From Pricia antarctica (GTDB taxonomy: Bacteria; Bacteroidota; Bacteroidia; Flavobacteriales; Flavobacteriaceae), in NCBI GenBank assembly GCA_011050085.1, contig DRGL01000014.1:1-64000 (forward strand): a stretch of 64,000 bases of DNA, in the 5' to 3' direction. Under the pieces are notes generated by a model. It did no database searches and was not told where the DNA came from. It saw only the letters and a program-made list of their open reading frames with translations. Positions 1 to 58,304 of this stretch are shown here, piece by piece; position 1 is the stretch's first letter, and every line of letters begins with the position of its first letter. Made by a program: the position numbers and the translations under genes.

Positions 1-405
1 GTAATGAAATGATTTTGCCAATCGCAAACGAAAGTTGGCATTGTCAACACAAGTGATGATAATGTTTGCCCGAATATCCTTGCCAGTTGCCAATGCATCC
101 ATCGGAATACCCTGCCATTGCAGACCAAAGGCCATGTTGACCTTATTGACCGCTTGGAAGACTTTATATTCCCCTACGTCAGATAGGGTGTACAACTGTC
201 GCCCGACATTGTTGGCTTCCACTCTATCGGAATCATAGGCGATTACATGAACCCCTGGGTGTCCTGTTTGTCGAAGGGCATAATCTATCCGTGCCAATCT
301 TGCGAGCATCAACGAACCTGTACCCCCTACTCCGATCAACGCTATCGTAATGGGATGTGTCGGGTTGTAAAAATAGTTGGGGGTAAAATGGATTCTAGTT
401 TTCAT
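1..405 (-). CDS. PRTRC system ThiF family protein (E1-like), partial at window edge
   Basis: The gene starts at 405 on the minus strand and runs off the left edge after 135 codons, so the C-terminus is missing. I translated it by hand from the complement. The N-terminal half shows a Rossmann nucleotide-binding loop GVGGTG at residues 25-30, an acidic pair D58/D60, and a downstream N65...R69-Q70 and D-V-G-E-Y-K block. This is the adenylating ThiF/MoeB/E1 pattern, which activates the C-terminal glycine of ubiquitin-like proteins with ATP. D120-N121 follows the next strand. The start overlaps the end of the protein B gene by 11 bases, so the two are translationally linked. It is the last visible gene of the PRTRC operon (E, C, F-like, B, ThiF). 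The family identity is well supported. Its substrate, presumably PRTRC protein C, is inferred from context. Confidence 0.88.
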   Translation of the reverse strand, partial: MKTRIHFTPNYFYNPTHPITIALIGVGGTGSLMLARLARIDYALRQTGHPGVHVIAYDSDRVEANNVGRQLYTLSDVGEYKVFQAVNKVNMAFGLQWQGIPMDALATGKDIRANIIITCVDNANFRLRLAKSFHY

Positions 406-1102
406 AAAGTTGGTTTAAGGTCATTTTGGTCGCTATCAATACCCTGTCATCGAAGGATGGTTTCCCGAAATTCTGTTTCATGACGTTTACGATATTGCCA
501 TCGACCAAACTAGTATGATGCGTTTCGGTAAAAACAGAGCGGAAAAACTGTTGTTCGACAAATCCCATAACATCCTCATAGTAATCAAAGCCGTCATAAT
601 CCATAGAAGCATTGCCCATACAAACATTGCCCTGCTTACCTGTATTCAGCATTGGGGCATGGTATAAGAATGTATCGTCCGTTAGGGTTTCCTTTCGTTT
701 TATGGCGAATACCTTTAATGAGTTTCCCTCTAGTTTAAAGACCAGTTTGGGCAAGGGGTATTTGCCTGACGGGATACCCGTTTTTGTCTCAAAATAGAGC
801 ATCCGTTGTTCGGGATGGGCGTACCATATCAATAGAAAATTGCCCTTGAAATCGAAGTGTATCAGATTTTTTGGAAGTATTCCCTTAAACCGGAATTTTA
901 TCAATTCCCCTTCCAAACAGGTAAAGATGTTTCGGGCGGTATCCTTTGTCAAGGGCATCCCTGCGGTCAACTTTGATCCTGCTACTTCGTGATACGAAAA
1001 ATAGTGGTCGTTGCGATAATAGTTATCTTCCTTGGTATGCCCGATAATGGCAAACTTTGGCAGAAAATGATCTGTTGCCTGTAATACTGCTATTCGTTCC
1101 AT
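395..1102 (-). CDS. PRTRC system protein B (prokaryotic E2-D-like)
   Basis: A 235-residue protein that matches the PRTRC protein B family, described as a prokaryotic E2-like fold (Prok-E2_D). The key region is residues 148-163: a His-Ala-Pro stretch, then Asn153 and a G-N-V-C-M-G motif with Cys161. This mirrors the His-Pro-Asn ... T-V-C-L-S arrangement around the catalytic cysteine of ubiquitin E2 enzymes, so Cys161 is the predicted thioester acceptor. A hydrophobic beta-rich segment (residues 84-125) precedes it, as in the E2 core. The start lies 3 bases after the stop of the upstream gene and the end overlaps ThiF. No signal peptide or membrane segment is seen, so it should be cytoplasmic. 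Activity as a conjugating enzyme is inferred. Confidence 0.85.
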   Translation of the reverse strand: MERIAVLQATDHFLPKFAIIGHTKEDNYYRNDHYFSYHEVAGSKLTAGMPLTKDTARNIFTCLEGELIKFRFKGILPKNLIHFDFKGNFLLIWYAHPEQRMLYFETKTGIPSGKYPLPKLVFKLEGNSLKVFAIKRKETLTDDTFLYHAPMLNTGKQGNVCMGNASMDYDGFDYYEDVMGFVEQQFFRSVFTETHHTSLVDGNIVNVMKQNFGKPSFDDRVLIATKMTLNQLYEN

Positions 1103-1105
1103 GTG

Positions 1106-2146
1106 TTAGAGTTCGTTTAAAAGTTCATTCAGATCGCTTATAAATTCTTCCAATCGGTCCAATCTATGGGGAATCGCTTCATCAAAAGGTTCGATATTGC
1201 CATCTTCGGCAATGGTATGTTGATAGGTGGATATGATATCGTAATCGCTGGAGCAATCGTTCAGCATTTGGATATACCCATTGGAAAATGCACTATCGGT
1301 ACGATCGACGACTAAAAACGATTCCCAATGCTCGAACATACAATCATACCCGTCCCTGACACTCAACTGAAAAGGCACTTGAAAATCAATGGTTTCTGCC
1401 TTTAGCAATAGTTCTTTGATCTGCTTGTTAATCCGTTTTCGGGGGCGGTATTTGTCCAATAAGGCTTTCCAGTCCCTGATTTCGTAGCCTTCCAAAAAGG
1501 TCTTGTACCTCGCATAGAATGTTGTGGAATGGTTCTTCATGATTTTCTTGTTGTCTCTGTAGTTCTCAACGTCCTCGAAAAGAAATTCCCATAACCAGTC
1601 AATCCTCGATTCATACTTTGGGAACAGACCCCCATAGGGCAGGCTCTTGATAAAGGATAGCAGGATGTGATAAAGTTTTCGGTTTCGACATCTCAGTTCG
1701 ATAACAGGGCGGATCGGAATCAAATACACCGTACTGCGGTTGGCGATGAACCGTTTCAGTATGAGTCGTAAATGTGCATTGTCCTGTAACACTTCGATAT
1801 GATCGATATTGCCCTTTATAGTAAGCCTGTTCGTACAACGAAGTATCAAATCGTCCAGACTATCGGAGACCGAGAATTGCCAATCGTCGATATTACCTGC
1901 AAAATTTCGGGTTATGTTTACCATTAATCGGGCAAGTGCCTTCTTGTCCAAGTCGTATTCTTCACTTACCAAAGGTTGGGCAAGAACTGGCGCAGCGCTT
2001 ATGTCAGAAATGGAAATACTTTCGGTTCTAGTACTTTGGGTCTTTGCGTTCTTCTTTGGTAATATTCCTGTTGTACCGCCCGAAACAATCGGTCGTGGAA
2101 CGGTGCGAGTTCTTTGGATGGGTTCGATCTGTATTTCGGAGTACAT
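1106..2146 (-). CDS. PRTRC-cluster protein in the protein F position
   Basis: A 346-residue soluble protein in the slot between PRTRC protein C and protein B, where other PRTRC cassettes encode protein F. I do not recognise a domain with confidence. The first 60 residues are rich in Ser/Thr/Pro/Arg and look disordered. From about residue 65 the sequence becomes regular (mixed alpha/beta, many aromatic and charged residues). The C-terminus is a predicted helix with repeated Leu (residues 325-346). No transmembrane segment or cysteine motif is visible. The chosen ATG lies 36 bases after the protein C stop. A competing frame, with its own ATG only 5 bases after that stop, overlaps the first 49 codons, so the true N-terminus is uncertain. 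Assignment as protein F rests on position only. Confidence 0.6.
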   Translation of the reverse strand: MYSEIQIEPIQRTRTVPRPIVSGGTTGILPKKNAKTQSTRTESISISDISAAPVLAQPLVSEEYDLDKKALARLMVNITRNFAGNIDDWQFSVSDSLDDLILRCTNRLTIKGNIDHIEVLQDNAHLRLILKRFIANRSTVYLIPIRPVIELRCRNRKLYHILLSFIKSLPYGGLFPKYESRIDWLWEFLFEDVENYRDNKKIMKNHSTTFYARYKTFLEGYEIRDWKALLDKYRPRKRINKQIKELLLKAETIDFQVPFQLSVRDGYDCMFEHWESFLVVDRTDSAFSNGYIQMLNDCSSDYDIISTYQHTIAEDGNIEPFDEAIPHRLDRLEEFISDLNELLNEL

Positions 2147-2182
2147 TGTTCTTGTCTTAAAAATTCGTCTACGTTCATTGGG

Positions 2183-2401
2183 TTATCCTTTTGTTCCTGC
2201 CAAGGTCTTAAAGTGGATTTCATGGTAGCCATCTACAATACCCTTGTCCATGATATTGGCATTGGTCAGTTCGGCATAGAGCTGTGCATAGTGTTCCATG
2301 ACCTGCTCGTGGCTCAATTCGTAATCAATGTCGTCCAACTCAATGGAGTTATTGTTCCCGTCTTGATAAACGTACTTTCGTGTGATAGTCGCTACTTCCA
2401 T
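2183..2401 (-). CDS. PRTRC system protein C (ubiquitin-like)
   Basis: A 72-residue protein with the signature of PRTRC protein C, a family classed as prokaryotic ubiquitin-like (Prok_Ub). Visible features are a short N-terminal beta region, the LSHEQVMEHYAQLYAELTNA helix block (residues 29-48) and the terminal G-T-K-G. The chain ends in a free glycine, so an E1-like enzyme could adenylate it without prior processing. Its ATG shares one base with the stop of the protein E gene (TAATG), giving tight translational coupling. It sits in one operon with E1-like ThiF and E2-like protein B. Family membership is strong; actual conjugation to targets has not been shown here and is inference. Confidence 0.88.
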   Translation of the reverse strand: MEVATITRKYVYQDGNNNSIELDDIDYELSHEQVMEHYAQLYAELTNANIMDKGIVDGYHEIHFKTLAGTKG

Positions 2402-2889
2402 TATCTGAACAGATTTGGGGATTCATACACTTCCATGTCCTTGACGACCTTCTGCGCTTCTTTGTGGTTTGGGTCTATCTTCAAAATTGCTTTGGCAAGG
2501 TCGGTCGCCTTTTTGTGGTCTTCCATCGGGTTAAAATCCTTCTTATTTAAAAGCTTTTTTAACTCGGTCGCCTTCTTGTAAACGGATTCCTTTTTCTTCT
2601 TGGCCTGTTGGGTCTTTTGTTCGGTTTCCTTCAATGCTTGCTCAAAGGCAACGGTATTTCTAAAAAGGGCTTGTGCCTTTTCCAAAGGTTTTTGGAGTAT
2701 TTGAAAGAATTTTTCGTCCACTTCTTCAATCGTTCCTCTAAGGGTAAGTGGTTTTAGGGTGTGGAGTGCCTTATCCTGGGCACTAGATTTAGGCAAAACA
2801 GATACGCTGACTGTAGCTCCATCGAACAAAATACTCATGCCGCACTGTTCGATACCCGTTTGCTGTAAGGTTGAAAAAAAGTTGTTCAT
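2401..2889 (-). CDS. PRTRC system protein E
   Basis: A 162-residue protein and the first gene of the minus-strand PRTRC operon. The N-terminal 70 residues follow the PRTRC protein E pattern: an opening M-N-N-F-F helix, a beta hairpin with V-S-V-S-V-L-P-K, then a leucine/threonine strand and an E-E-V-D-E-K-F helix. The middle (residues 85-125) is a lysine/glutamate/glutamine-rich predicted coiled coil. The C-terminal 35 residues (A-K-A-I-L-K-I-D-P-N-H-K-E-A) read like a TPR helix. No membrane segment is present. Its molecular role is unknown in the literature I can recall. It is always found with the C/B/ThiF ubiquitin-like set. Confidence 0.82.
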   Translation of the reverse strand: MNNFFSTLQQTGIEQCGMSILFDGATVSVSVLPKSSAQDKALHTLKPLTLRGTIEEVDEKFFQILQKPLEKAQALFRNTVAFEQALKETEQKTQQAKKKKESVYKKATELKKLLNKKDFNPMEDHKKATDLAKAILKIDPNHKEAQKVVKDMEVYESPNLFR

Positions 2890-3176: not shown

Positions 3177-6100
3177 TTAACCCGCCCGTTTCCGTTTGAG
3201 CGTCTTAATTTCATGTTTTAACACCTGCATCTTAGCTACCTTCTCATCCGGGAAGCCAATGGCCGTTTTTTTACGATGAGTGTCCAAAGTACGTAGGTTA
3301 TAGTTTACATCAAATTTTTTCGATTTGATTTCACGCGCCACCTTTTGACATAACTTGATAAGTTGCATGGCCACTTTTTCAGGGTCGAAGCGCTGCTGCT
3401 TTCTACCTGAAATGTGTATATTTTTAAACTCCAATCTAAAAGAGTAAAGATAATGCTCGTTTGAAGGTACATAGTCCGCCTGAAAAGCGAGATTCGCATT
3501 TAACGATGGAAAATGGGCAACCCTCTTGTGCTTTTGAACGTTCAGATTTAGCTTTGACCGTTCTACGATCGAAAAACCTAAATACTTAATAAACTCCTTG
3601 GGTTCTTTGGTCACGAGTTCTTTGGATAAAAGAATGGAATTTGAAATTAGATTGTTCAGCCCGTCCTTTAATCGAGACGTATCCTCGAATGTATCTTCAT
3701 CTACCGGTAGGTTGAAAGTTTGTATTACTTTTTGTGCGCCTTCAAGCTCGACCAATTGTGAGATGATTTCTTTGTTCTCCTTTTCGATCCGTTCAACGGC
3801 CTTAAAGGAATTGGCCTTGTTGAGTTCGTGCAATCGTTTCTGTGATTGCAAAAACTTGAGATCGTCGGAAAGCTTTACCAATTGAAACTGGTCCATATCG
3901 CCAATAAGGGCGGCCTGCATCTGTTCATACGAAAGGCTTTTGTCATCGGGAACAAGGTCATCGTAAACACGTTTGTTCGGGTCGGCTTCCCTAATCTGTT
4001 CCCGAAACTTTTCTTTATGGGTATTGAGCGAATAGGAAAATATATCGGTGGAATCTTTTATGCCATAGAACCGTTCCACGACCGTATTGCCATAAACTTG
4101 TGCTACTTCATTGCCTTTTCGCAGACCGCGTCCTGCCCGTTGGTCAAAAGCATCGGGGGAATAGGGAATATCCATGTGAAATATACCCACCACCCTTTTC
4201 TGAATGTTGGTGCCCGTACCTAATACTTGGGTACTGCCCAGAGCCACCCGTATTTGGCCACTTCGGATTTTCTCCTGCATTTGATCGGTTCTGTTCCTTG
4301 CTTTTTCCTCTTGTGCCAAAGCAATTTTATTTACAGGGATGCCATATTCTTTATGAAGTATCTCACGCACTGTATCATAGGAATTGTACACGCCCGGTTT
4401 CCAAACGTTCAAGTCGGAGAATACCAGACATACCCCTTTGTGTTCCGATGTTTTTTTGTAAAGTTCTGCTACATCGCGACACAGCCTTTGCAGTTTAAAC
4501 TGGTCAAGTTCCGTAAATTTCACGGCCATGTTATCCTTGGCAAGTGGATCGATCAAAAGCGACCTATTGATGTTCAATGCGGTAATATGAGCGGATTTCA
4601 TTTGCTCATCATCATAAATGGGCAATTTGAAAAGCGCTTTTTGGTTCCGGTTCTTGGTAAATTCCAGGGATGCCTGCTTAAGTTCTTCATATGCCGGAGT
4701 GGACTCTAAAATCACAAACTCCCTATCGGCTTCCAAGTCATGTGTCTTGAAATGTTTGTCCCGGCAGATGTGCGTAAAGGAATTGTACATCTTGCTCAAT
4801 TCGGGGAGGTTGGTATAATATCGAAAACGGGCATGCATTCTAGGGTCCCCGAAGATATTGGGTTCAATACTTACACTTTGCTTCAAAAATATGGAGGCCC
4901 AGGCATCGAAATTAAAAATGTTCTTGCGTTTCAATGCCGATGGCGTCAGGTAGCGTTGATAGGCGTACAGTTCCGTTACGGAGTTTTTCAAAGGCGTACC
5001 GCTATAAAAAAAGATATTTTTGTCCGTTCCCATCCGCGTATGAACGGATTTGATACTGATTTCAAGGTCGAGGTTCCGTTGACTGTCCGAATGACTGTTA
5101 AGACCTGAAACGTTCTGATGCCGGGTCGTGAAACCGATATTTTTGAAATAATGTGCCTCGTCTATCATCAGGGCTTCGATACGCAAATCGGTCAAGGTAA
5201 TCTCGGTTTCCGTCGAACGCTCTTTCAACTTTTTTAGTGTGGCCTGTAGCTTGTCCTCCAAGTGTTCCTTTCTTTTGATCATCCCTTTGATCAATTTCTT
5301 GGATTCCTTACCATTTCCATATTGCTTTGCGGTTTCCAAATCCTGCGATATCATCTCGATTTTTTCCTCCAAGGTCTCCATAACAAAACTCCGCTCTTTC
5401 GGTATTTGCTTTAGATGTCCATGTTCGGCGATTATCAGGTCAATGGATTTATTGTCCTTTATAGTGCGCAGGGTTTTGGGGCGTTTGCTCTTGGCCATAT
5501 TCTTGGAACTCAACCGTAGGATGTTCAGTTCAGGAAAGTTGGCCCTGATTTCCGCCTCGATTTGCGGGGCTACACTTTTTAGCGTGAGTAGCATAGTACG
5601 CTCGCTTTTCCCGTGCTGTTTCAATTTATAGCCCAACATTGCCATAGAAAGGGTCTTGCCCTTGCCGACCTGATGGTCGTTCAGGGCACTTCCCTTTGTG
5701 AGACCGAACAACGTGGAATCGATTTGATGTTGATAGGGCGGGTACACCAAGGTTTCCGGAAACGTGAGCGAACCTTTGGGTACGGTAATGTTGATGTCGG
5801 CCAAAAAAGCTTGGTAGTAGTTATCCTCAATGGTAGCTTTCAGTTCTTGGCGCCCTTCGATAAAGGATTTGAAATGGAGCTGTAGTTCTTCGTACAGGTT
5901 TTGTGCCATCAAGGTAGCGTCCTTATCCAATTTTCTAACGGTCTTCCCTGAACTATCCTTGTAGGAAGAGAAAATGACAGGATACCTGTTTTCCGCGAAA
6001 TGTTGTAATATTCGTTTGTAACCGGCCTTGACCTCATGGTGCAGTACTACGCTAAAACGTTCATGGGCCTCCAGATTATAATCCCTTGGGAATAGGAGCG

Positions 6101-8183
6101 TCAAAGTTGAATTGAACTGACCTACGTTGATCCGCACTTTTTCGTTAATGAGTTCCTCTAAAAAAGATTCTTTCGCGGTAATGGGTATAAAATGGCTTTC
6201 GAAATTGAACTCGATGTCGTTCAGGTCCAATTTAACGGGTAACAGATCCGATAAGGCCCGTTCCATTTTAGCCGATTCGATTCCGTACGGTGGAGGATTG
6301 TTCTTGAGGTAATCGATCTTATCTTGGATGTAGCCGCTGGAAAAGAGAAAATAGGGAACCGTTCTATATCCGGTTTCGGACTGCGGATTGGGTTCCAAAA
6401 AAAACGAACGGGTTTCGAGCGCGGTAAGTAACAGGTCCTTTTCATTGGTCTTGAATGCTTCCGCTATTTCAGGTAAATCGATTATCCCATTTTGGTCGAA
6501 CTGGTAGCGCGCCATTTCTTCAGGATTCTCAAACCGCTTTTCTTCTGGCGTTGTATGTTGTTGCTCGCTTGTTTCCGATATTTGTTTCTCTACCCGTTCT
6601 ACGGGTTTCGATCGTAAAAATCGTTGCAGGGTAAACTCGGGGCTCTTGCCATAGCTTTGTCCCTCCAATTTTTTTTCGAACTGTTGACGAACTTGCTCAA
6701 AGTAATGGTCTTCTTTAAGGAAAATGAGGTGTTGTTTCAACGAACCCCATTTGAAATGGAAAGTGTCCAACTGGTAATCGATATCCTGAAAGCGTTGGGC
6801 AATATCCTGGACCGAAAGTCTGCCTTTATCTATATTCAGGTTTAAAAGCACCAGATTATTTCGCATCCGCGCGTAATCCTGTATCAGCTCCGTAATCTTG
6901 TTCGGCACCTTCCTAAAGCTATGGGGATCTGTGTAAAAGAGTACCGTTCCCTTTTCGTCAAAATTGTAGCTGCCAAAGAACAAGCGGGTAAATTGTTTGG
7001 CATCGTTGTCCTGCAATTTTATCGGGACGGGACCAATTTCCAATTCGGAGGTTTGGGATGCTATAGGTTCTTCTTTTTCGGGTGCCGATGGTTCGAGGAA
7101 AGTTTCCTGAACTTTTTGGATCGTTCGAATTGGAGCGATTTGTACAAAATCGAAGTTGTTGGACTGACGTTCCAAAAACTCCGACAGGGATGTACCATTA
7201 GGTTCTATGACCATACTCGGCCGGTTATGGAAAAAACCAAGTTTTGGACTGCCGTTGACCTGTTCGGTATGCACTTTAAAGAATTGATTGGTCTTAAAAC
7301 TTTGGCCTTCTATTTCAATGGTATCGGTTTCGACAAATTGCATTTCAATTTTGGAAAGAGCGTTTTTGTTCGTTGTCCTTCGATAGACCAATAAATCCGA
7401 TACGACCTTTGTCCCTTCTTCGGAGAACAAATCTGTGTTGAAACGATTGGCCAGGAGCAAATCGTTTTCCATTAAGATTCTTTGTCTAAAATCATTATAG
7501 GCACTTCGTTCGGAGAAGGCCGAAGAGATAATCAAGGCTGTAATGCCGCCTTGTCGAACCATTTTAGGTGCGTATACATTGAAATAATTACCAACGTTCT
7601 TAAGCGTAGGTTCGGTAAGATAATGGTGCTGGTAGGCCTTGGTAATCGGAATATCCCCAAAGGGAATATTGGTCATGACCAAATCAAATTTCCCCTGTTT
7701 TGCATGATTCAAATAGAATTCCTCGAAAGGGATGTTGAGCACCGTTACGTTCGGACTTTTAATATTATTGGCCTTTAAAATTTCAAAGGACAGTATATCC
7801 GGTTCTAGAGCGGTAATTCGGGCATTGGGAAATGCTTTTTTCAGTTCCTGAACATATGCCCCGTTGCCCGCCGAAGGTTCCAATATGGTCTTTGGATCGA
7901 AACCATTTCTTTTCAATAGATCGATTTTATACCCGATTATTTCTTTTGGCGTATAATAGCTGGTAAGGTGATACCGTTTTAATGAACCAAGGATTTCTTT
8001 CGAGGTTTCCGGAAATGTTTCTTCGATAGTTTGCAACAGATCATGTCCTACTTTCTCCTGTCCTTTTGGAGGATAGAACAACAGCTGCCCCAATTTTGCC
8101 AAGCCACCATTATTGATATAATAATTACCGGGATTGGCAGCTTTTATCGCCTCAAGAATACGCGTCAAAATATCGTTTTTCAT
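3177..8183 (-). CDS. Large N6-adenine methylase / SNF2-type helicase fusion
   Basis: A 1668-residue protein with an N-terminal DNA methyltransferase and a superfamily 2 helicase. Residues 100-109 carry the S-adenosylmethionine motif I (ILEPSAGNGAY), and residues 171-176 carry T-N-I-P-F-G, a variant of the adenine-methylase (N/D)PP(Y/F) motif. The helicase part has Walker A H-Q-V-G-K-G-K-T near residue 838, a DEAH box near 1006, and motifs V/VI ending Q-R-A-G-R-G-L-R-K-G-N near 1347. The remaining C-terminus is largely helical and highly charged. Such proteins are common on Bacteroidota conjugative elements and plasmids and are often annotated as helicase/methylase or BREX-like. Likely roles are protection or remodelling of the element's DNA, or anti-restriction. 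No nuclease motif was seen. Motifs are clear; the role is inferred. Confidence 0.88.
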   Translation of the reverse strand: MKNDILTRILEAIKAANPGNYYINNGGLAKLGQLLFYPPKGQEKVGHDLLQTIEETFPETSKEILGSLKRYHLTSYYTPKEIIGYKIDLLKRNGFDPKTILEPSAGNGAYVQELKKAFPNARITALEPDILSFEILKANNIKSPNVTVLNIPFEEFYLNHAKQGKFDLVMTNIPFGDIPITKAYQHHYLTEPTLKNVGNYFNVYAPKMVRQGGITALIISSAFSERSAYNDFRQRILMENDLLLANRFNTDLFSEEGTKVVSDLLVYRRTTNKNALSKIEMQFVETDTIEIEGQSFKTNQFFKVHTEQVNGSPKLGFFHNRPSMVIEPNGTSLSEFLERQSNNFDFVQIAPIRTIQKVQETFLEPSAPEKEEPIASQTSELEIGPVPIKLQDNDAKQFTRLFFGSYNFDEKGTVLFYTDPHSFRKVPNKITELIQDYARMRNNLVLLNLNIDKGRLSVQDIAQRFQDIDYQLDTFHFKWGSLKQHLIFLKEDHYFEQVRQQFEKKLEGQSYGKSPEFTLQRFLRSKPVERVEKQISETSEQQHTTPEEKRFENPEEMARYQFDQNGIIDLPEIAEAFKTNEKDLLLTALETRSFFLEPNPQSETGYRTVPYFLFSSGYIQDKIDYLKNNPPPYGIESAKMERALSDLLPVKLDLNDIEFNFESHFIPITAKESFLEELINEKVRINVGQFNSTLTLLFPRDYNLEAHERFSVVLHHEVKAGYKRILQHFAENRYPVIFSSYKDSSGKTVRKLDKDATLMAQNLYEELQLHFKSFIEGRQELKATIEDNYYQAFLADINITVPKGSLTFPETLVYPPYQHQIDSTLFGLTKGSALNDHQVGKGKTLSMAMLGYKLKQHGKSERTMLLTLKSVAPQIEAEIRANFPELNILRLSSKNMAKSKRPKTLRTIKDNKSIDLIIAEHGHLKQIPKERSFVMETLEEKIEMISQDLETAKQYGNGKESKKLIKGMIKRKEHLEDKLQATLKKLKERSTETEITLTDLRIEALMIDEAHYFKNIGFTTRHQNVSGLNSHSDSQRNLDLEISIKSVHTRMGTDKNIFFYSGTPLKNSVTELYAYQRYLTPSALKRKNIFNFDAWASIFLKQSVSIEPNIFGDPRMHARFRYYTNLPELSKMYNSFTHICRDKHFKTHDLEADREFVILESTPAYEELKQASLEFTKNRNQKALFKLPIYDDEQMKSAHITALNINRSLLIDPLAKDNMAVKFTELDQFKLQRLCRDVAELYKKTSEHKGVCLVFSDLNVWKPGVYNSYDTVREILHKEYGIPVNKIALAQEEKARNRTDQMQEKIRSGQIRVALGSTQVLGTGTNIQKRVVGIFHMDIPYSPDAFDQRAGRGLRKGNEVAQVYGNTVVERFYGIKDSTDIFSYSLNTHKEKFREQIREADPNKRVYDDLVPDDKSLSYEQMQAALIGDMDQFQLVKLSDDLKFLQSQKRLHELNKANSFKAVERIEKENKEIISQLVELEGAQKVIQTFNLPVDEDTFEDTSRLKDGLNNLISNSILLSKELVTKEPKEFIKYLGFSIVERSKLNLNVQKHKRVAHFPSLNANLAFQADYVPSNEHYLYSFRLEFKNIHISGRKQQRFDPEKVAMQLIKLCQKVAREIKSKKFDVNYNLRTLDTHRKKTAIGFPDEKVAKMQVLKHEIKTLKRKRAG

Positions 8184-13325: not shown

Positions 13326-14615
13326 ATGATAAACTATTCCGAGGATCCCTTGCACTATAAAAAGTTGATAGCCCAAATCAATGAGGAGGTCGACTTTTCA
13401 GGCTATCTAAATGCCCAAGGGTATCAGCTCTTAAAGAAAAGTACAGGTTCGCAAGAATTCAAGAAGAATGACGAGCGTATCGTATTACAGACCAAACGTC
13501 ATCCCGTTACCTATTTTAATCGCAATGACGGTTCTGACAAGGGACTTTTTTTTAAGTTCATACATATGTGCTTCGGAAATTTCTATGAAGCCATAAAATC
13601 CGGATTAGAGGCCATAAGACGAACATATCCGGTTGCAAACACCGAAACGCATCGAAAGAGCGTCAAGACTTTCAAAAGCCTTGAGGAACGGTATAACATC
13701 AATCCTTTGACCAAGCCGATTTATTTGTCCGAGGTACGCCATCTGAGCCTGGCTACTCTCCGATCCGATGCCTTTAAGGGTAGAATCTTCAATGCCTTTC
13801 ATATCGATGACAGCAGGGGCCGTATTGCGAATATCGCCCTTCCGAAATATGGAACGGACGGCAATATCAAAAATTACACCTTATATAATCGACCGTACCG
13901 GGACAGAAAAGACGGTAAAATAAAGAAATTTCGATTATTCCTGAACGAGCGTTACGAATACCTTTTTGTTTCAAATCCAGAAGTCAAGGCGGACAAGGTG
14001 GTTTGCGTAGAGAGTGGTTTCGATGCTTTGGCGTATCATGAGCTACATGGGTTTCCAAAGGCCTTTTACATTTCGATGTCGGGCCATATAGATGATCGCA
14101 AGTTGGAGCAGTTTTTCCAATGGAATACCTTGGTAGGAGGGGCCACTAATCTACCGATTCATTTAGCATTTGACCATGATATCGAAGGAATGCGCTACGA
14201 TCTTATGGTTGTGAGGAGTTGGGTCAATCGACGGTCGGACCGCGTATTTATGGAACTTGATTGGAAGCGACCGAATATGCAAATTAAACTGAACTATCAT
14301 TCCGGCTCTCTGGCCGAAATGGAGCGTGATACAGATTTTATCAATGAACAGATCGCTGGTGGTCCGGAAGGGACGGCACAATTCTTTGAAAAGGCGATCT
14401 GTTTTAGGGATAAGGTAGTTTGGGAACTCGATCTTGACAAAATACAACGGTCTCCAAAAGCATCAAGGGACTATTGGAAGAGGGCAATCGGTATCCTATC
14501 CGAATGTTTTACAAGGGACACTATTAGAATAGATAAGTCCCCCTCCCAAAAGGATTGGAACGATGAACTGATTTCGGTAAAAAAAAAGTTTCATTGTCAG
14601 CTAGCTCATCTCTAA
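13326..14615 (+). CDS. Toprim domain primase-like mobilization protein
   Basis: A 429-residue protein with an N-terminal DUF3991-like region (aromatic strands and a K-G-L-F-F-K-F-I segment near residue 75) and a Toprim_2-type catalytic core. The Toprim residues are visible: Glu229 in C-V-E-S-G-F-D-A-L, Asp283 and Asp285 in F-D-H-D-I-E-G, and a C-terminal K-D-W-N-D-E-L (residues 409-415) typical of this primase class. Such proteins make primers or process DNA during conjugative replication. It starts 76 bases after the preceding terminator, following a small inverted repeat (GAGACA/TGTCTC, 13293-13309), and leads into the coupling protein gene. It appears fully intact. Confidence 0.85.
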   Translation: MINYSEDPLHYKKLIAQINEEVDFSGYLNAQGYQLLKKSTGSQEFKKNDERIVLQTKRHPVTYFNRNDGSDKGLFFKFIHMCFGNFYEAIKSGLEAIRRTYPVANTETHRKSVKTFKSLEERYNINPLTKPIYLSEVRHLSLATLRSDAFKGRIFNAFHIDDSRGRIANIALPKYGTDGNIKNYTLYNRPYRDRKDGKIKKFRLFLNERYEYLFVSNPEVKADKVVCVESGFDALAYHELHGFPKAFYISMSGHIDDRKLEQFFQWNTLVGGATNLPIHLAFDHDIEGMRYDLMVVRSWVNRRSDRVFMELDWKRPNMQIKLNYHSGSLAEMERDTDFINEQIAGGPEGTAQFFEKAICFRDKVVWELDLDKIQRSPKASRDYWKRAIGILSECFTRDTIRIDKSPSQKDWNDELISVKKKFHCQLAHL

Positions 14616-19531: not shown

Positions 19532-19855
19532 ATGGAAAACAAGCTGGTAAGAATCCCAAAGGCCCTTCAGAAGGATGTATTCTTCTTCGGGCTACGCGCT
19601 AAATATGTGGACCAAGCCTTCAAGGGAACGTTCCTCTCCTTGATGTTGGGGCTGTTCTTAAGTACGTTCATACCTACTTTTCTCAGTCTTTTACTTTCCT
19701 TCTGTGCAGCGGCAGTTTACGTCGGGCTGATGCTCTTCTATTCCAAAGCATACGGTGAAAACGGTTTCATTAAATCCCGAGCGGACAAGAAAGGCCCGGA
19801 TGCCATCAAAGGTCATGTGAACAAAAAACTCCTCGTGCTATGGAAAAAACGGTAA
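19532..19855 (+). CDS. traF: TraF family (DUF4133) conjugation protein
   Basis: A 107-residue protein with the VirB3-like TraF/DUF4133 layout: a short basic N-terminus (R-I-P-K-A-L-Q-K-D-V-F), the motif F-G-L-R-A-K-Y-V, and two adjacent transmembrane helices (about residues 32-72). A conserved-looking polar C-terminus follows. It probably docks the VirB4-type ATPase at the inner membrane. Its 3' end overlaps the traG start by 16 bases, so the pair is co-translated. Confidence 0.85.
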   Translation: MENKLVRIPKALQKDVFFFGLRAKYVDQAFKGTFLSLMLGLFLSTFIPTFLSLLLSFCAAAVYVGLMLFYSKAYGENGFIKSRADKKGPDAIKGHVNKKLLVLWKKR

Positions 19856-22431
19856 ATCTATTGGACACTTTTCCTATTTATGGGTACGAGGCCCCTATTC
19901 TGGTGTCGAAAGAAAAAGGTTGTATCAGTATTCCGTTGGAATTGGAGCTTCCGGAAATCTACACTATGGATGGAAAGGACTATATGAACCTGAACCGAAT
20001 AGTCTCCGGTATTCTGGAAATAATGGGGGAAAATTGCCTGTTGCACAAACAGGATCTTTTCTTCGGGGAAACCTATGCCGTTGATCCTTTGCGGATGAAA
20101 CGCGATTTTTTCGAAACGCAGGATGAACTCTACTTTAAGGAAAGACCTTTTTTAAGACACCGTTCCTTTTTGGCGATACACAAGGTACCCAAGAACTATA
20201 TCGGCCGAACACCTCTAGGTGTCAATTCTTTTTTAAAAAAGGAACGCGGTTTCTATGGGAAAAACCCATTACCCGCAGAATATCTGAACACCGAGGTCAT
20301 GGCCGATTTTGAGGCCCGTGTCGGGGCCGTAAACGACCTGATAAACGATTCCGGTTTGATAGGCTCGAAAATATTGGGGTATGAAGACCTTTTCGAATCG
20401 GCCGGGTACTACGATAATTATCTGGAAGCAAGCTACCAAGCAGGTGCTGGCAGGGATGTTGATTTTTCGGGGAACACCTTGCACATCGGGGACAAACAGG
20501 GGCAGTACTTTACGCTGGAAAACTTGGACCAATTTTCAAAAGAGGATATGGCCTTTCATGAGTATTTCGGAAAATACACCACCGGTGAAAACCTTTTCCC
20601 TATCAGCAATCTGTTCTCTTTGGGCTTTAAGATTCCGCACGAACATATCATCAACCAATACATCTATATCCCGGAGAAGGAAAAGGCCATGGGTAGGCTA
20701 AGGTCAAAGGCCAAACGCTTGAACAAATACGCCACCAATCGCAAAGGGGACAAAAACAGCACCTATCGGGACCAAATCTACGAGTTCCAACAATCGATAC
20801 TGAACGACCACAAAGAATTGGTGTATTACCACCTGAACGTACTGGGGTTGGCCGATTCCAAAAAGACCTTTCGGTCGATGTGCAACACCGTCAAATCCGC
20901 ATTCGGAAAATTGGGCATCCATGCCAAGGAAAATTCCGTGGATCGCAAAAAACTATTTTTCGGGGGCATTCTCGGTAACGGCATCGGTACGAGTATGGAA
21001 CTGTACAGTCCGTTTTCCTCCGAAATGGCTTCCAGTCTATGGTATTTCGAAGGAGGTTATAAAAACAGGCTTCACGGTCCACACGGGCTGCGTATGGTCG
21101 ATAGGGCCACGGGACAACCTTTATTGGTCAGTCTCTATCGCGAACCGGAGGAAAAGGATTGGATATTTAACCGGGGGATGCTCATAGCATCGGGATCGGG
21201 CGGAGGAAAGACCTTCTTTACAAACGCCTATCTGTACTCGGAATATCGTGAAGGTGCGGAAATTTTGATCCTTGAAAACGGAAACTCATATGACAAGCTA
21301 TTGGACCAACTGAACGGAGTCACAATAGCGAACGACGACCAAAACCCATTTACCTTCAATCCCTTTATACTCGATTCTATAGATGTTGTCGTTAAGGATG
21401 GCAAGAAAACCCTGACCGAACATAAACTGACCCAACTTATCGCTTTGGTGTATTTACTATATGGCCGTAAGGATAATGAAGCAGGGGATACCCATGATAA
21501 CACAGTAGTCCGTACGATTATCGAGTTCTTGGTTCAGGGATATTATCAACATCAGTTTTCAAAGGGTAGTTCCGACGATTCTTTTAATACGTTCTACGAC
21601 TACACACATCAAAATTTGAAAGCCCTAATGCAAACGAAGGGCATCCGAGATGAAATATTCGATCCCAATCTGTTCTTATTGTTGCTCAGCAAATACGCTC
21701 ATGACGGGCCGAGGGCGTACCTCTTGAATAGCAGGGATAAAAGAATAGCTCAACTGAGCCAGGAAAGACTGGTCTATTTCAAATTGGAAAATTTGGTCAA
21801 TAATGAAGAACTTTTCCCCATCGTGGCATTTTTGATGATCGATGTGTTCGACAAAAAGTTGAAGGACCCGAAGAAACTTTCCCTCAATAAAATATTGGCC
21901 GTGGACGAGGCATGGAACCTGTTCGACAACCCCATTATGGCCAACTATTTCGATGCCAAATCCAGGATGGCAAGAAAGTATGGAGGACAGCCCATATTCA
22001 TATCACAGAAGGTCGACGATTTCGTAAAATCAAAATTTATCGGCAAGACCATCGTGGTGAACAGTCATATCAAAGTGCTGCTCGACCTTGGTGAATTCGC
22101 CAACTCCTTTGATGAAATCCAGAACATATTAGGCCTGAACGCCAAACAAAAGCAACTGAACCTTTCCGTCAACAAGGATTTACCCATAGGCCGAAAACTA
22201 AGGGAAATGGCAATTTGTTGGAAGGAAAGGGTCAAGGTTTTTGGACTGGAAACATCCTTACCGACCAAATGCCTGTTCGAAACGAATCCGAACGAAAAAG
22301 CAAAAATCAATAGGCTGCATGAACAGCACGGTTATGATTGGGAACGAACCGCGATCGCCTATAAACAATTAGTGATGGAACAAACCGATAGGGATTTGAA
22401 AACCCTGAACGGAAATAGTAAGAACACTTAA
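19840..22431 (+). CDS. traG: VirB4-type conjugation ATPase TraG
   Basis: An 863-residue ATPase that powers assembly and transfer through the channel; called TraG in Bacteroidota elements although homologous to VirB4. Walker A G-S-G-G-G-K-T lies at residues 452-458. Walker B I-L-A-V-D-E-A-W-N-L-F is at 685-695, and the motif I-F-I-S-Q-K-V-D-D-F follows. The N-terminal half (residues 1-430) is the VirB4 N-domain. Length is normal for the family and no disruption is seen. It overlaps traF and is followed by traI after 12 bases. Confidence 0.93.
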   Translation: MEKTVNLLDTFPIYGYEAPILVSKEKGCISIPLELELPEIYTMDGKDYMNLNRIVSGILEIMGENCLLHKQDLFFGETYAVDPLRMKRDFFETQDELYFKERPFLRHRSFLAIHKVPKNYIGRTPLGVNSFLKKERGFYGKNPLPAEYLNTEVMADFEARVGAVNDLINDSGLIGSKILGYEDLFESAGYYDNYLEASYQAGAGRDVDFSGNTLHIGDKQGQYFTLENLDQFSKEDMAFHEYFGKYTTGENLFPISNLFSLGFKIPHEHIINQYIYIPEKEKAMGRLRSKAKRLNKYATNRKGDKNSTYRDQIYEFQQSILNDHKELVYYHLNVLGLADSKKTFRSMCNTVKSAFGKLGIHAKENSVDRKKLFFGGILGNGIGTSMELYSPFSSEMASSLWYFEGGYKNRLHGPHGLRMVDRATGQPLLVSLYREPEEKDWIFNRGMLIASGSGGGKTFFTNAYLYSEYREGAEILILENGNSYDKLLDQLNGVTIANDDQNPFTFNPFILDSIDVVVKDGKKTLTEHKLTQLIALVYLLYGRKDNEAGDTHDNTVVRTIIEFLVQGYYQHQFSKGSSDDSFNTFYDYTHQNLKALMQTKGIRDEIFDPNLFLLLLSKYAHDGPRAYLLNSRDKRIAQLSQERLVYFKLENLVNNEELFPIVAFLMIDVFDKKLKDPKKLSLNKILAVDEAWNLFDNPIMANYFDAKSRMARKYGGQPIFISQKVDDFVKSKFIGKTIVVNSHIKVLLDLGEFANSFDEIQNILGLNAKQKQLNLSVNKDLPIGRKLREMAICWKERVKVFGLETSLPTKCLFETNPNEKAKINRLHEQHGYDWERTAIAYKQLVMEQTDRDLKTLNGNSKNT

Positions 22432-37810: not shown

Positions 37811-38842
37811 ATGAAACGAACCAAACAAATACTCAGAATACTATTAATTGTGGCGAGCATTGGCTCCTTATACTTCGTGCCATGGGTCTTGGTAAAAGCT
37901 TGGATTTTACCATTACCCGACACGGTGCAAGAACAAGTGGATGAAGCCATTGGCCACGGATTTGATGGCATGATTGTTTACGTGGACCAAGCAGGAAAAC
38001 CGCCAGCCTTTTATGCAGGCGGTTGGAAAGATCGAAAAAACGAAATACCTGCCGATCCTAAATCCTTGTTCAAGATTGCCAGCATTAGCAAATTGTATGT
38101 CGCGGTTGCCGTCACGAAATTGGTTCATGACAATCGTTTGTCCCTAAATGAAACGCTCGCTGATTACTTTCCGGAACTTGTGGGTAGAATCGAAAATGCG
38201 GAAAAAATTACGTTGAGAATGATGGTGCAACATCGGTCTGGTATTCCCAATTTTACAGATAATCCCGCGTATTGGGAAAATGAACAGGAAAATGGTACAA
38301 AAGCGCTGGAATTTGCCCTTGATTTGCCCGCCAATTTTGAACCGGATAAAGACTATGGCTATTCAAACACGAATTATTTATTGCTTCGCAGAATCATGGA
38401 TGATGTATTAGGCTATAACCACCACCAGTATATAAGGGAGAAAATCTTGATACCATTAAAACTAAAGCATACGTTTTTTTCGCTTGACGAGGTAGATTTA
38501 GATGATGTGATGAGCGGCTATTATGTGGGCTATGATGAAGATTTTAAAACTAGGGAATATGGGATGTTGGCTACAGCAGAAGATGTTGGTATTTTTCTTA
38601 GGGCATTGAACGACGGTTCCGTATTCCAAAAAGGTGAACAAGAAATCTATTCCTCCATTTATGAGTACGAACATGGCGGTCTAGTAGTAGGTTATCAGAG
38701 TCTAGCAGAATACCATGAGGATATCGATACCGTAGTGGTTCAATTCATAAATACAACCGATTTTGAGGGATACGAATGGAATTTATCGGAGATTGTAATT
38801 AATCGTATTGTAAAGATATTGAGAAGAGAAAAAAGCTCATAA
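37811..38842 (+). CDS. Serine beta-lactamase-like hydrolase (class C type)
   Basis: A 343-residue protein with an N-terminal signal anchor (residues 8-25) and a beta-lactamase/DD-peptidase fold. The active-site S-I-S-K is at residues 91-94 and the second motif Y-S-N at 184-186. The third (K/H)-x-G motif is less clear (E-H-G-G-L-V near 283). Proteins of this type are esterases, peptidases or beta-lactamase-related hydrolases in the periplasm. It is the first of four related genes in the window. Confidence 0.87.
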   Translation: MKRTKQILRILLIVASIGSLYFVPWVLVKAWILPLPDTVQEQVDEAIGHGFDGMIVYVDQAGKPPAFYAGGWKDRKNEIPADPKSLFKIASISKLYVAVAVTKLVHDNRLSLNETLADYFPELVGRIENAEKITLRMMVQHRSGIPNFTDNPAYWENEQENGTKALEFALDLPANFEPDKDYGYSNTNYLLLRRIMDDVLGYNHHQYIREKILIPLKLKHTFFSLDEVDLDDVMSGYYVGYDEDFKTREYGMLATAEDVGIFLRALNDGSVFQKGEQEIYSSIYEYEHGGLVVGYQSLAEYHEDIDTVVVQFINTTDFEGYEWNLSEIVINRIVKILRREKSS

Positions 38843-38900
38843 CGGTTTTTTTGACCGATAAACAACAAATGATAAAATCTTAAACAGTTTCTAAATCAAA

Positions 38901-41180
38901 ATGTCACAAAATTTAGCGGAACATAAAGAGTCTTGGCAAACAATCTTCATTTTTTTGGCCATTGTTACCATCACTAGTGCCTTATTTCACTATGCCATCG
39001 TCAACTTATACCCTTCTAGAATATACATTGGCGCACTTATGTGGTGTCCAGCGATAGCAGCGATGATTACGTTAGAATTAAAAGGTCGCCCCATTTCTTC
39101 CTTACATTGGGATTGGGGAAATTGGAAATATATCCGTTTATCGTATTTCGTCCCTGCCTTATATGTAGTGGTTACCTATATGCTCATCTGGCTTTTCGGT
39201 TTGGGAGGATTACCGAATGTGAAAATGGCTTTAGAATGGGCCGAAGAAATTAGATTGGTCGGAATAGGAACATTAAGCCCCACGATTTCAGTAATCGTGG
39301 CGGTTATCTTGTTAGGAACTGTCGGTGTTATTCGGGCAATGGCCACTACTCTGGGAGAAGAAATCGGTTGGCGGGGATTTTTCATCTATGAACTGAGAAA
39401 GCTATTGTCTTTTTCGGGTGTTTCCCTCTTTAGTGGAATTGTTTGGGCTTCTTGGCATTGGCCGTTGATCGTATATTACGGTGATAATATCCTTTTGGAA
39501 ATGACTACCTTTTTTATCGTTATTGTTTCCATGTCATTTATGATGACCTATTACACCTTTAAGTCGAACAGTCTTTGGCCGGCAGTGATCTTCCATGCGG
39601 TAAGCAATGTATATGTTCAGAAAATAATCACTAAAATTATGACAAAGACAAAGCGTGTGAAAAAACTTCAGTATAAATTAATTTTTCAATCCATTGTTTT
39701 GGTTTTTCTGGGTTCTTGTTCCAATCCATCCAAAAATTCCAACACCCAAAGTGTTGATTCAAATTGTATTAACGAAGAAGGATCAGTTGAAAAGAAAGTT
39801 CAACTAGAAGTTGGAATTCGTGGGCAAGTGATGTTTCTGGGAGAGTCGGATAATTTCAGCTCCATAGCAGATAAAATGTCAGAATACAAAATTCCGGCAT
39901 TATCCCTTGCGGTAATAAACGAAGGTAAAATTGAATGGGCAGACATGTATCAAAATGCGAATTTCCCCGAAGAACAAGAATTGGACTGTGCGAGTATTTT
40001 TCAGGCAGCCTCATTGTCTAAACCGGTAACGTTTCTGGCGGCACTACGTATGCATTCAGCTGGCGAAATAGATCTAGATAAAAATATCCAAAATTATCTG
40101 AAGGATTTTGAACTGCCCCAAGGAAAACAAACAGCGGAGAATCCGGTCACGTTTCGTAATATCTTCTCCCATACATCAGGAATCACTTCTGGCGGATATG
40201 AAGGATACGCTAAAGATCTTGCTTTACCCTCTGATTTAGATGTTTTAAAGGGTAGTGAAGGGGTAAATTCCCCAGCCATTCAAGTCATCACACCGCCCAA
40301 TGAAACACTGGCCTATTCGGGTGGTGCTTACACATTAGCCGAATTGGCCCTTCAAGACATATACAACGAAGAGTTCCCGAAAATTATGAAAAAATGGATT
40401 CTCGAGCCTGCCGGAATGGAACACTCGGATTTCACACAACCATTACCAGAATCAAAATCGAATCAGGTAGCCAAAGGTTACACGCAATCGGGGGATGTTT
40501 TAGATGGTGGCTGGCGAAATTATCCGGAGCAAGCCGCGGCAGGTCTTTGGAGCAACGCGGTTGATATGTCTAAATTCCTAATTGAAATTTATAACGCCTA
40601 TAACGGTAAAATCTCGCTGTTTTCCCAATCCGATATTAAATCGATGATAAGCCACGTACGGGATCGACAAGCGTACGGGTTCATAGTGAACCGGTCTGGA
40701 GAGGATATTGCCATTACGCACTACGGAGGTAATGCAGGGTATCGTACAGGTATGACAATAAGTCTAACGAACGGAAATGGTTTGGTCTATTTGATCAATT
40801 CGGACAATGGAGGGGCACTCGGGAATGAACTCCTTCTATCTGCCTCACAAGTATATAATTGGCAGCATTTTAAGCAAATCGATGCTCGGCGGAAAGAGGT
40901 TAGCTCAGAAGTTTTAAAAGGGTTGATAGGTAAATACAAGTGGAACGATCGAATAGACCTTAAAATCACATTTGATGAAATCAATGACCAAATTTCACTT
41001 TATTTCCCGAATGGTGATGAATATAAGCTTACGGCTATTGTTGGTGATGAACTTGATTTTATCCATCCAAATACTGGTGTAAAAGTTTCATTTTCAAAGA
41101 AAGACTACTTCCGGTCTTTCTCCCTCTACGGGCAGACTGCTGTTAAATTGAAACCCAGCACGGATGCCAACGAAAAGTAA
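38901..41180 (+). CDS. Fusion of CPBP intramembrane protease and beta-lactamase-like lipoprotein
   Basis: A 759-residue protein with two complete modules in one frame. Residues 1-245 are a CPBP (CAAX protease/bacteriocin-processing type) membrane protein: G-E-E-I-G-W-R (E153, E154, R158), W-A-S-W-H-W (H186) and F-H-A-V-S (H232). At residue 247 an internal Met (base 39639) begins what looks like an independent lipoprotein with lipobox F-L-G-S-C (Cys273). It is followed by a serine beta-lactamase-like domain with S-L-S-K (371-374), Y-S-G (472-474) and H-Y-G-G. The joint looks like a fusion of two adjacent genes by loss of a stop, or a genuine membrane-tethered two-domain enzyme; translation may also start at 39639. 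Confidence 0.85.
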   Translation: MSQNLAEHKESWQTIFIFLAIVTITSALFHYAIVNLYPSRIYIGALMWCPAIAAMITLELKGRPISSLHWDWGNWKYIRLSYFVPALYVVVTYMLIWLFGLGGLPNVKMALEWAEEIRLVGIGTLSPTISVIVAVILLGTVGVIRAMATTLGEEIGWRGFFIYELRKLLSFSGVSLFSGIVWASWHWPLIVYYGDNILLEMTTFFIVIVSMSFMMTYYTFKSNSLWPAVIFHAVSNVYVQKIITKIMTKTKRVKKLQYKLIFQSIVLVFLGSCSNPSKNSNTQSVDSNCINEEGSVEKKVQLEVGIRGQVMFLGESDNFSSIADKMSEYKIPALSLAVINEGKIEWADMYQNANFPEEQELDCASIFQAASLSKPVTFLAALRMHSAGEIDLDKNIQNYLKDFELPQGKQTAENPVTFRNIFSHTSGITSGGYEGYAKDLALPSDLDVLKGSEGVNSPAIQVITPPNETLAYSGGAYTLAELALQDIYNEEFPKIMKKWILEPAGMEHSDFTQPLPESKSNQVAKGYTQSGDVLDGGWRNYPEQAAAGLWSNAVDMSKFLIEIYNAYNGKISLFSQSDIKSMISHVRDRQAYGFIVNRSGEDIAITHYGGNAGYRTGMTISLTNGNGLVYLINSDNGGALGNELLLSASQVYNWQHFKQIDARRKEVSSEVLKGLIGKYKWNDRIDLKITFDEINDQISLYFPNGDEYKLTAIVGDELDFIHPNTGVKVSFSKKDYFRSFSLYGQTAVKLKPSTDANEK

Positions 41181-56905: not shown

Positions 56906-58165
56906 ATGACAACATTAGTTAGAATCATCGGATTAAGCCTATTAAGCTTATTTATCACATTAACCTCCTGCTCAAGTGACGACAATGAGGTCGTCGTATT
57001 GCCCGAACCATCGGACACTATGACCGCTGCTGAATTGTCCACCTATTTTGAATCGGTGGTCGAAACGGAGAATATTCCTGGTTTTGCAGTAACAATAGTT
57101 AAAAATGATGCCATCGTTTTTCAGGATGGTTTCGGTTTTGCGGACGCACAAAACCAGAAAGCATATACCAATCAAACACAGAATGGAATAGGATCTTTAA
57201 GCAAAACTTTTGTTGGGGCCGCGACTGCCAAGGCAATGGAACAAGGGTACTTCACTTTAGAGACACCTATAAATGACGTATTACCTGTGGAAATCGTAAA
57301 TCTACAACGACCGGAGGCAGTTATATTGGTCAAACATTTAGTGACCCATACCTCCGGCATTGTTGATAATCCAACGAATTATGTTGTGGGAAATTATAGC
57401 GTACTACCTGGTCAAGATTTGAGTGGCGAGGGTGCGGATATTCTGTTAAACGGTCTTGGATTGGAAGTATCAAACCCCATACCGCTGGCTGATTATCTTG
57501 GGGAGTATTTCTCGGAAGAAGGTGTATTCTATGGAGATGATACCTATATCAATGTTGAGCCCGGAAGTACATGGTCTTATTCCAATGTAGCCACGTCATT
57601 AATGGGCTTTGTCATTGAGTCTGCCGCCGAACAATCTTTTGATGAATACGTTAAGGAGCATATTTTGATGCCCTTGCAAATGAATACTTCAACATTTAAC
57701 GTGTTGGAAGTGGATTTTAATAGAATGGCGATTCCCTATATTGATAAAGGTAAACTGCTTCCATTTTATGGGAATCATGGTTATCCCGAAGGGAGTATGC
57801 ACACCACAAATGAGGACTTAGGCAACTATTTATTGGATATGATGCGCGGCATAAAGGGTCAATCGGCTACATTATTTGCCCCTTCATATTATGAACTTCT
57901 ATTTATGGAACAACTTCCTGATGGAGTAGTACCAAATGCATTTGCGGAGAACCATGGTCTCTATTGGTATAACAAAAATGGCAAATGGATGCATGGCGGC
58001 AATAGTTTGGGGGTTTCATCGCAAATGGAAATCGCCCGTGACGGCAGTTTCGGGTTTGTAATTACAAGCAATATAGACGGAACTTTTGTAGAAAACGAAG
58101 GAAAATGGGAGGCCGTAAAGCAAAAAATTCAGGAAGGCATACAGGCTTTTTTGAGGGATAATTGA
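56906..58165 (+). CDS. Serine beta-lactamase-like lipoprotein
   Basis: A 419-residue lipoprotein with lipobox L-T-S-C (Cys22) and an acidic linker. The beta-lactamase fold follows: G-S-L-S-K (S97, K100), H-T-S-G-I-V near 150, Y-S-N in the W-S-Y-S-N segment near 225, and W-M-H-G-G as the third motif (near 365). It is one of four such enzymes in the window. A palindromic repeat follows its stop. Confidence 0.88.
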   Translation: MTTLVRIIGLSLLSLFITLTSCSSDDNEVVVLPEPSDTMTAAELSTYFESVVETENIPGFAVTIVKNDAIVFQDGFGFADAQNQKAYTNQTQNGIGSLSKTFVGAATAKAMEQGYFTLETPINDVLPVEIVNLQRPEAVILVKHLVTHTSGIVDNPTNYVVGNYSVLPGQDLSGEGADILLNGLGLEVSNPIPLADYLGEYFSEEGVFYGDDTYINVEPGSTWSYSNVATSLMGFVIESAAEQSFDEYVKEHILMPLQMNTSTFNVLEVDFNRMAIPYIDKGKLLPFYGNHGYPEGSMHTTNEDLGNYLLDMMRGIKGQSATLFAPSYYELLFMEQLPDGVVPNAFAENHGLYWYNKNGKWMHGGNSLGVSSQMEIARDGSFGFVITSNIDGTFVENEGKWEAVKQKIQEGIQAFLRDN

Positions 58166-58184
58166 TTTTCAGCAAGGAAATTAA

Positions 58185-58267
58185 TGGAACGCTGATGACG
58201 CGGATTAAGCGGATTTACACAGATAAAATCATAACTTATCATAAAGATCAGCGTCATCTGCGTGCCA
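58185..58267. repeat. Imperfect inverted-repeat element (REP/MITE-like)
   Basis: Two 21-base arms, 58185-58205 and 58247-58267, are inverted copies matching at about 18 of 21 positions (core GATGACGC / GCGTCATC). They enclose 41 bases with a smaller GATAA...TTATC pair. It sits between two beta-lactamase-like genes. The form matches small palindromic intergenic repeats that recur in many Bacteroidota genomes. Confidence 0.7.
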
Positions 58268-58304
58268 TTGTACAGCAAGTAAGAACGACCTAATTATTAG
58301 AAAC

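Follow-up and report, generated by a model that had tools for sequence, protein, structure and literature searches.

A predicted ubiquitin-like conjugation operon of the PRTRC kind linked to a conjugative element in Pricia antarctica

Gene content of the operon

We analyzed a 64,000-nucleotide stretch of the Pricia antarctica genome (the window), which begins at the first base of contig DRGL01000014.1 (C14) of assembly GCA_011050085.1, a genome of 5.48 Mb in 84 contigs. The window opens with an operon of PRTRC genes on the minus strand (1-2889), in the order E, C, a 59-residue open reading frame (ORF), F, B and ThiF. Profile searches against Pfam and NCBIfam placed the products of E, C, B and ThiF in PRTRC families and that of F in none. 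The features of the operon are:

2401..2889, minus strand: PRTRC protein E, 162 residues (PF19556 1e-21; TIGR03741 56 bits, cut-off 38)
2183..2401, minus strand: protein C, a ubiquitin-like modifier (Ubl) of 72 residues with C-terminal GTKG (PF14454 1e-13)
1999..2178, minus strand: unannotated 59-residue ORF (MNVDEFL...FLT), in another frame and overlapping the start of F
1106..2146, minus strand: F-position protein, 346 residues, between C and B (no Pfam or NCBIfam match)
395..1102, minus strand: protein B, E2-like (Prok-E2_D), putative catalytic Cys161 (PF14460 1e-26)
1..405, minus strand: PRTRC ThiF, an E1-like adenylyltransferase, 135 N-terminal residues (TIGR03736 3e-34, PF00899 2e-10)

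A first-pass annotation made from the sequence alone had described a compact operon of three genes, for an E1-like enzyme, an E2-like protein and a Ubl. All three families are present and the B and ThiF genes do overlap, but a 346-residue gene separates the Ubl from the E2-like gene, protein E and the 59-residue ORF belong to the set as well, and the E1-like gene is cut before its catalytic cysteine. Across 80 Bacteroidota loci the genes usually run E-C-F-B-ThiF, and B overlaps ThiF. A scan confirmed 359 relatives of B, and PRTRC operons occur on Bacteroidota elements at hundreds of loci and also on large plasmids of Pseudomonas, Burkholderia and Cupriavidus; no relatives of B were found in viral contigs. 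Text matches to 'PRTRC' also turned up in the literature on Rhizobium tropici, where the one checked was only the plasmid name pRtrCIAT899.

The E1-like enzyme

The window ThiF stops at the contig end after 135 of about 259 residues (full-length homologs have 259-262), leaving the catalytic Cys outside the window, and the remainder of this copy was not found elsewhere in the assembly. The truncated protein scores 118 bits to TIGR03736 (cut-off 145), and the full-length ThiF proteins of a second, intact PRTRC copy on contig C6 of the same genome and of the closest relative, L044, reach 199 bits. The GVGGTG ATP loop reported by the first-pass annotation lies within the visible part. Among 28 full-length E1s from Bacteroidota, Pseudomonadota and Cyanobacteriota, GxGGxG, D, RQ, K, DxGN, a later G/S-Cys, Gln and Asn are kept; the Cys is invariant, and the conserved Gln and Asn come after it. 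A third copy, on C45 (L007 8472-10467), is degenerate, with deletions that fuse E, C and F and a B shorter by 74 residues. C14 and C45 break off at the identical ThiF base, which suggests a collapsed repeat in the assembly and not a truncated gene. The ratio of nonsynonymous to synonymous substitution rates (dN/dS) is 0.04-0.11 for C, B and ThiF in comparisons with close relatives, indicating strong purifying selection.

The E2-like protein

Protein B scores 94 bits to PF14460 (cut-off 25) and 90 bits to TIGR03737, under the cut-off of 131. In an alignment of 71 rows, the window's own sequence and 70 relatives, W93, P150, N153, V160, C161, G163, F186, F187, S189 and F191 are unchanged throughout. 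The proposed catalytic-type Cys161 is invariant, together with most of the 'His-x-Pro ... V-C-M-G' motif originally assigned to it (P150, V160, C161 and G163); the His of that motif, H148, is not conserved, being His in 35 and Tyr in 32 of the 71 sequences. N153 sits eight residues before C161, the same spacing as between the Asn of the His-Pro-Asn motif and the Cys in canonical E2s such as Ubc13, Ubc9 and UBE2D, and is likely the counterpart of that Asn.

Iyer, Burroughs and Aravind (2006; PMC1779556) described operons of this sort as type 6d, including a Bacteroides member, along with their mobility and likely conjugation chemistry. The type 6d E2 has a downstream His that they called absolutely conserved (PMC1779556). 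At the place aligned with this His the window has E193, and 55 of the 71 rows have His; H195, two residues further on, is kept through the window's clade.

Structure prediction had been named as a check on the E2 fold around Cys161. The AlphaFold2 model of B has a predicted local distance difference test score (pLDDT) of 81, and a VIA-align search with it gave UBC-family or E2-complex chains in nearly all of the 50 rows shown (Z 4-5.8, matching over residues 64-222), the best match having Z 5.8 and a root-mean-square deviation of 4.3 over 123 aligned residues. A Foldseek search of the model against the PDB gave nothing at E <= 0.001, with E2 chains appearing only at E of about 1, and because these statistics are not significant the model provides only moderate support for a UBC/E2-like fold around Cys161, based on the uniformity of the match list and the Pfam assignment. 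A sequence search of solved structures with the B and C profiles found nothing meaningful.

The modifier and the JAB protease

Protein C scores 51 bits to PF14454 (cut-off 25) and 38 bits to TIGR03738, under the cut-off of 46. The description of a 72-residue Ubl ending in a free glycine was borne out well beyond the window: all 78 of 78 Bacteroidota C proteins end in GxKG (GTKG, GHKG or GFKG) followed directly by the stop codon. The JAB protein PRTRC-A was absent from the window and from 80 related Bacteroidota loci; in 23 whole Bacteroidota genomes it gave no match over cut-off, and neither did Prok-JAB in the genome of the window. Where the E1 is not fused to a JAB domain, the JAB gene was stated always to be adjacent (PMC1779556), which does not hold for the Bacteroidota branch. 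Several plasmid loci annotated as PRTRC in their records also have no JAB, so the PRTRC name as used does not require one.

Plasmids of other phyla with a readable C comprise 16 loci with A and 7 without, by a profile hidden Markov model check on the stretches fetched. The Ubl extends past KG, by 3 to about 80 residues, in 10 of the 16 JAB-bearing loci and in 0 of the 7 JAB-less ones (Fisher p 0.0075, not corrected for relatedness, from a small sample limited to the sequence around each plasmid locus). That the extension occurs only where JAB is present supports JAB as the maturation protease of the Ubl, a role with precedent in archaeal Rpn11, a JAMM protease that matures its Ub precursor (PMC6043591). 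In the six A-bearing loci without an extension A retains its H[ST]H...S..D motif, so A probably also acts as a deconjugase; the JAB of mobile operons of this kind was predicted to act in both processing and removal (PMC1779556).

In a tree of B and ThiF, the loci without A fall into no fewer than three groups: Bacteroidota (support 97), Pseudomonas/Halopseudomonas (100) and Alteromonas/Shewanella (100). Its root is at the midpoint and its deeper nodes are weak, so the order of JAB gains and losses is not fixed; the tree does not include Deinococcus, which is also A-less. The simplest reading is that only a Ubl made in mature form allows the protease to be missing. The Bacteroidota branch lacks JAB and would make its Ubls mature, with no dedicated eraser, which we count as a new point of this analysis.

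On a Subdoligranulum plasmid (L148 4113-6256) a 463-residue protein with a PRTRC_A-like match precedes ThiF, which may represent a PRTRC system of Bacillota that is fused or has diverged.

The F-position protein and an overlapping reading frame

F has no profile similarity to the proteobacterial F (hhalign probability 3%). Its AlphaFold2 model (pLDDT 75) is disordered over residues 1-63, followed by an alpha/beta domain, and a fold search with it gave no clear match. Its dN/dS is 0.18-0.31 against close relatives, well above the range for C, B and ThiF.

The 59-residue ORF begins four bases past the Ubl stop codon and covers the first 49 codons of F in a different frame, where the F model is disordered. 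All 20 of the 20 clade members related to the window share its start, stop and length, and nucleotide changes in the overlap gather at the third codon position of its frame. When the synonymous codons of F were randomized, the 59-residue frame stayed open in a mean of 3.3 of 10 diverse rows, compared with 10 of 10 observed, and its identity was 19% +/- 1%, compared with 53% observed. The converse test showed that the F frame is also constrained (34% vs 22%), and with constraint on each frame both appear to be translated. A programmed frameshift joining the ORF to F is disfavored, since both frames are constrained and since the ATG of F is present in all 20 sequences, at a place where the 59-residue frame alternates between Cys and Trp codons. 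This conserved overlapping ORF is another new point of this analysis.

Linkage to a conjugative element

Two further features bear on the genetic context:

3177..8183, minus strand: methyltransferase-helicase fusion, 1668 residues, Eco57I-like (below cut-off) and Helicase_C domains
19840..22431, plus strand: TraG/VirB4-type conjugative transposon ATPase (TIGR03783 6e-108), on the same element as the operon

The element in the window carries transfer genes (MobC, TraG, J, M, N and Q-like). Eleven genomes of the clade contain 14 copies of B. A TraG sharing at least 51% identity with that of the window lies 19-45 kb away from 11 of these copies; for the other three the cognate TraG is 86 kb away, 147 kb away or absent from the contig. 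In 12 of 18 clade loci the distance between the methyltransferase-helicase and the operon is under 10 kb, and in the other Bacteroidota clade Tra genes lie within 10 kb in 24 of 62 loci. These observations support linkage of the operon to a conjugative element, as first proposed. The transfer system was at that time called complete, which the transfer genes above do not show, since no PF03432 relaxase was found on the window's contig; matches to this family occur elsewhere in the genome. Upstream of MobC, in a place that would suit a relaxase, a 429-residue gene (13326-14615) has a weak Toprim_2 match only.

On proteobacterial plasmids the PRTRC genes adjoin ParB. No ParB was present among the listed neighbors of plasmid-borne Bacteroidota loci, and no PRTRC-type ParB over cut-off was found in this genome, where two ParB-like matches below cut-off lie on other contigs. 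The methyltransferase-helicase gives weak matches to the defense models DISARM DrmD and BREX PglX.

The part of the window that looks chromosomal contains several genes of the beta-lactamase fold (PF00144), TPR-repeat AraC regulators and a CAAX-protease-like fusion (37811-41180 and 56906-59468). A Tunicatimonas plasmid (L041 15450-17259) carries a second, different Ubl system, composed of a multiubiquitin protein, a ThiF-family protein and a DUF6527 protein.

Interpretation and alternative explanations

We interpret the operon as a probable ubiquitin-like conjugation system of the PRTRC/type 6d kind on a Bacteroidota conjugative element, with a probability of roughly two in three. The direct support consists of gene content, conserved residues, the E2-like fold, the mature Ubl end, the absence of PRTRC-A, selection and linkage. 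The idea that the operon supplies the parts for ubiquitin-like modification agrees with the families, fold, invariant residues and selection, although such a set of parts is not new, being that of type 6d (PMC1779556). Several points weigh against this interpretation: the assembly cuts off the E1 of the window, the window's clade lacks at its expected place the His described by Iyer et al. as absolutely conserved, the structural Z of B to E2s is modest and its Foldseek matches fall short of significance, the Fisher test counts related plasmids as independent, and the literature searched held no biochemistry or experimental paper on PRTRC.

By this mechanism, ThiF would adenylate Gly72 of C and take C as a thioester on its conserved Cys, from which C would be passed to Cys161 of B. 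B, aided by N153, would then attach C to an amine on a target protein, with E, F and possibly the 59-residue protein choosing or presenting that target; F is the best candidate for target choice because it evolves fastest. In the Bacteroidota branch the Ubl would be encoded mature, with no JAB/JAMM protease of the system to mature or remove it, so that the tag would stay on permanently unless unrelated enzymes took it off. Because the operon keeps its linkage to genes for transfer and plasmid partition across several phyla, the target probably belongs to the element or to host DNA maintenance. We tentatively propose, at a little under even odds, that Bacteroidota conjugative elements use eraser-free tagging, in which the Ubl is encoded mature, JAB is absent wherever this branch lacks the extension, and the system of the window's clade has gained a new 59-residue protein encoded in an overlapping frame.

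A narrower version of the conjugation reading, in which the Ubl modifies a protein of partition, replication or transfer and thereby sets that protein's stability or timing, is a possibility that we take seriously but would not bet on. The position of PRTRC genes beside ParB on proteobacterial plasmids and by the Tra region in Bacteroidota elements is consistent with it; this genome, however, has no PRTRC-type ParB over cut-off, and linkage alone does not show function.

Defense against phages or plasmids, with the Ubl attached to an invader or effector protein as in Bil or type II CBASS (cyclic oligonucleotide-based antiphage signaling system), seems unlikely. Related E1/E2 systems are anti-phage, namely Cap2 (PMC10097602) and Bil (as cited in PMC13373217), Iyer et al. 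proposed protection from invasive replicons (PMC1779556), and the adjoining methyltransferase-helicase weakly resembles defense proteins. Nevertheless, the PADLOC defense models gave no match for B, C, E or F and only weak E1-E2 matches for ThiF (E 5e-4 or worse), the neighbors in several phyla are transfer and partition genes, and no effector gene is apparent.

It is quite improbable that the operon is a sulfur-carrier pathway, in which ThiF would adenylate C, C would carry thiocarboxylate sulfur to a small molecule or tRNA like ThiS or MoaD, and B would be a scaffold. Membership in the ThiF family and a mature Gly end would suit ThiS or MoaD equally, and JAB is likewise absent from thiamine and molybdopterin operons (PMC1779556), but the E2-like protein found in every complete locus has an invariant Cys and is under strong purifying selection, and Pfam and NCBIfam scans of the window proteins revealed no sulfur-donor gene or metabolic gene next to the operon. 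We give as little credence to a decaying or non-functional window copy, which the degenerate C45 copy and the cut E1 might suggest, as all visible window genes are intact with dN/dS of 0.04-0.22 against L044 and the shared C14 and C45 breakpoint suggests a collapsed repeat.

The comparison made here renders an old prediction directly testable. Extended proteobacterial Ubls would be expected to be cut by JAB exactly after Gly, and the branch that lacks JAB to conjugate its Ubl with no processing step; the 59-residue protein and F are testable as specificity factors.

Comparison with known systems

The systems named alongside Bil in PMC13373217 resemble the window operon in having Ubl, E1 and E2 as separate genes. 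They differ from it in carrying a deubiquitinase (DUB)/JAB partner and in belonging to other families, the window proteins falling in PRTRC families. Type II CBASS, with Cap2 and Cap3, shares bacterial E1/E2-type conjugation chemistry. In its Cap2, E1 and E2 are fused and conjugate the cyclase itself rather than a separate Ubl; none of this is present in the window operon. The JAB-type Cap3 removes the modification (PMC10097602). The Ub/E1/E2/Rpn11 operon of Caldiarchaeum serves as a model for the link between JAB and the Ubl extension, its JAMM protease cutting the Ub precursor after the C-terminal Gly-Gly (PMC6043591); the protease is present there, whereas no counterpart was found in the Bacteroidota branch.

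The closest comparison is with PRTRC/type 6d itself. The window branch differs in having no JAB (protein A) and this genome in having no PRTRC ParB over cut-off; the window F has no detectable similarity to the proteobacterial F, B and C fall below the NCBIfam cut-offs, the downstream His of the window's clade is shifted by two residues, and an extra 59-residue overlapping ORF is present. The two are alike in their Ubl, E1-like ThiF, E2-like protein with a conserved Cys, extra largely helical protein and mobility, and the window operon is essentially a type 6d/PRTRC operon rather than a new kind of system.

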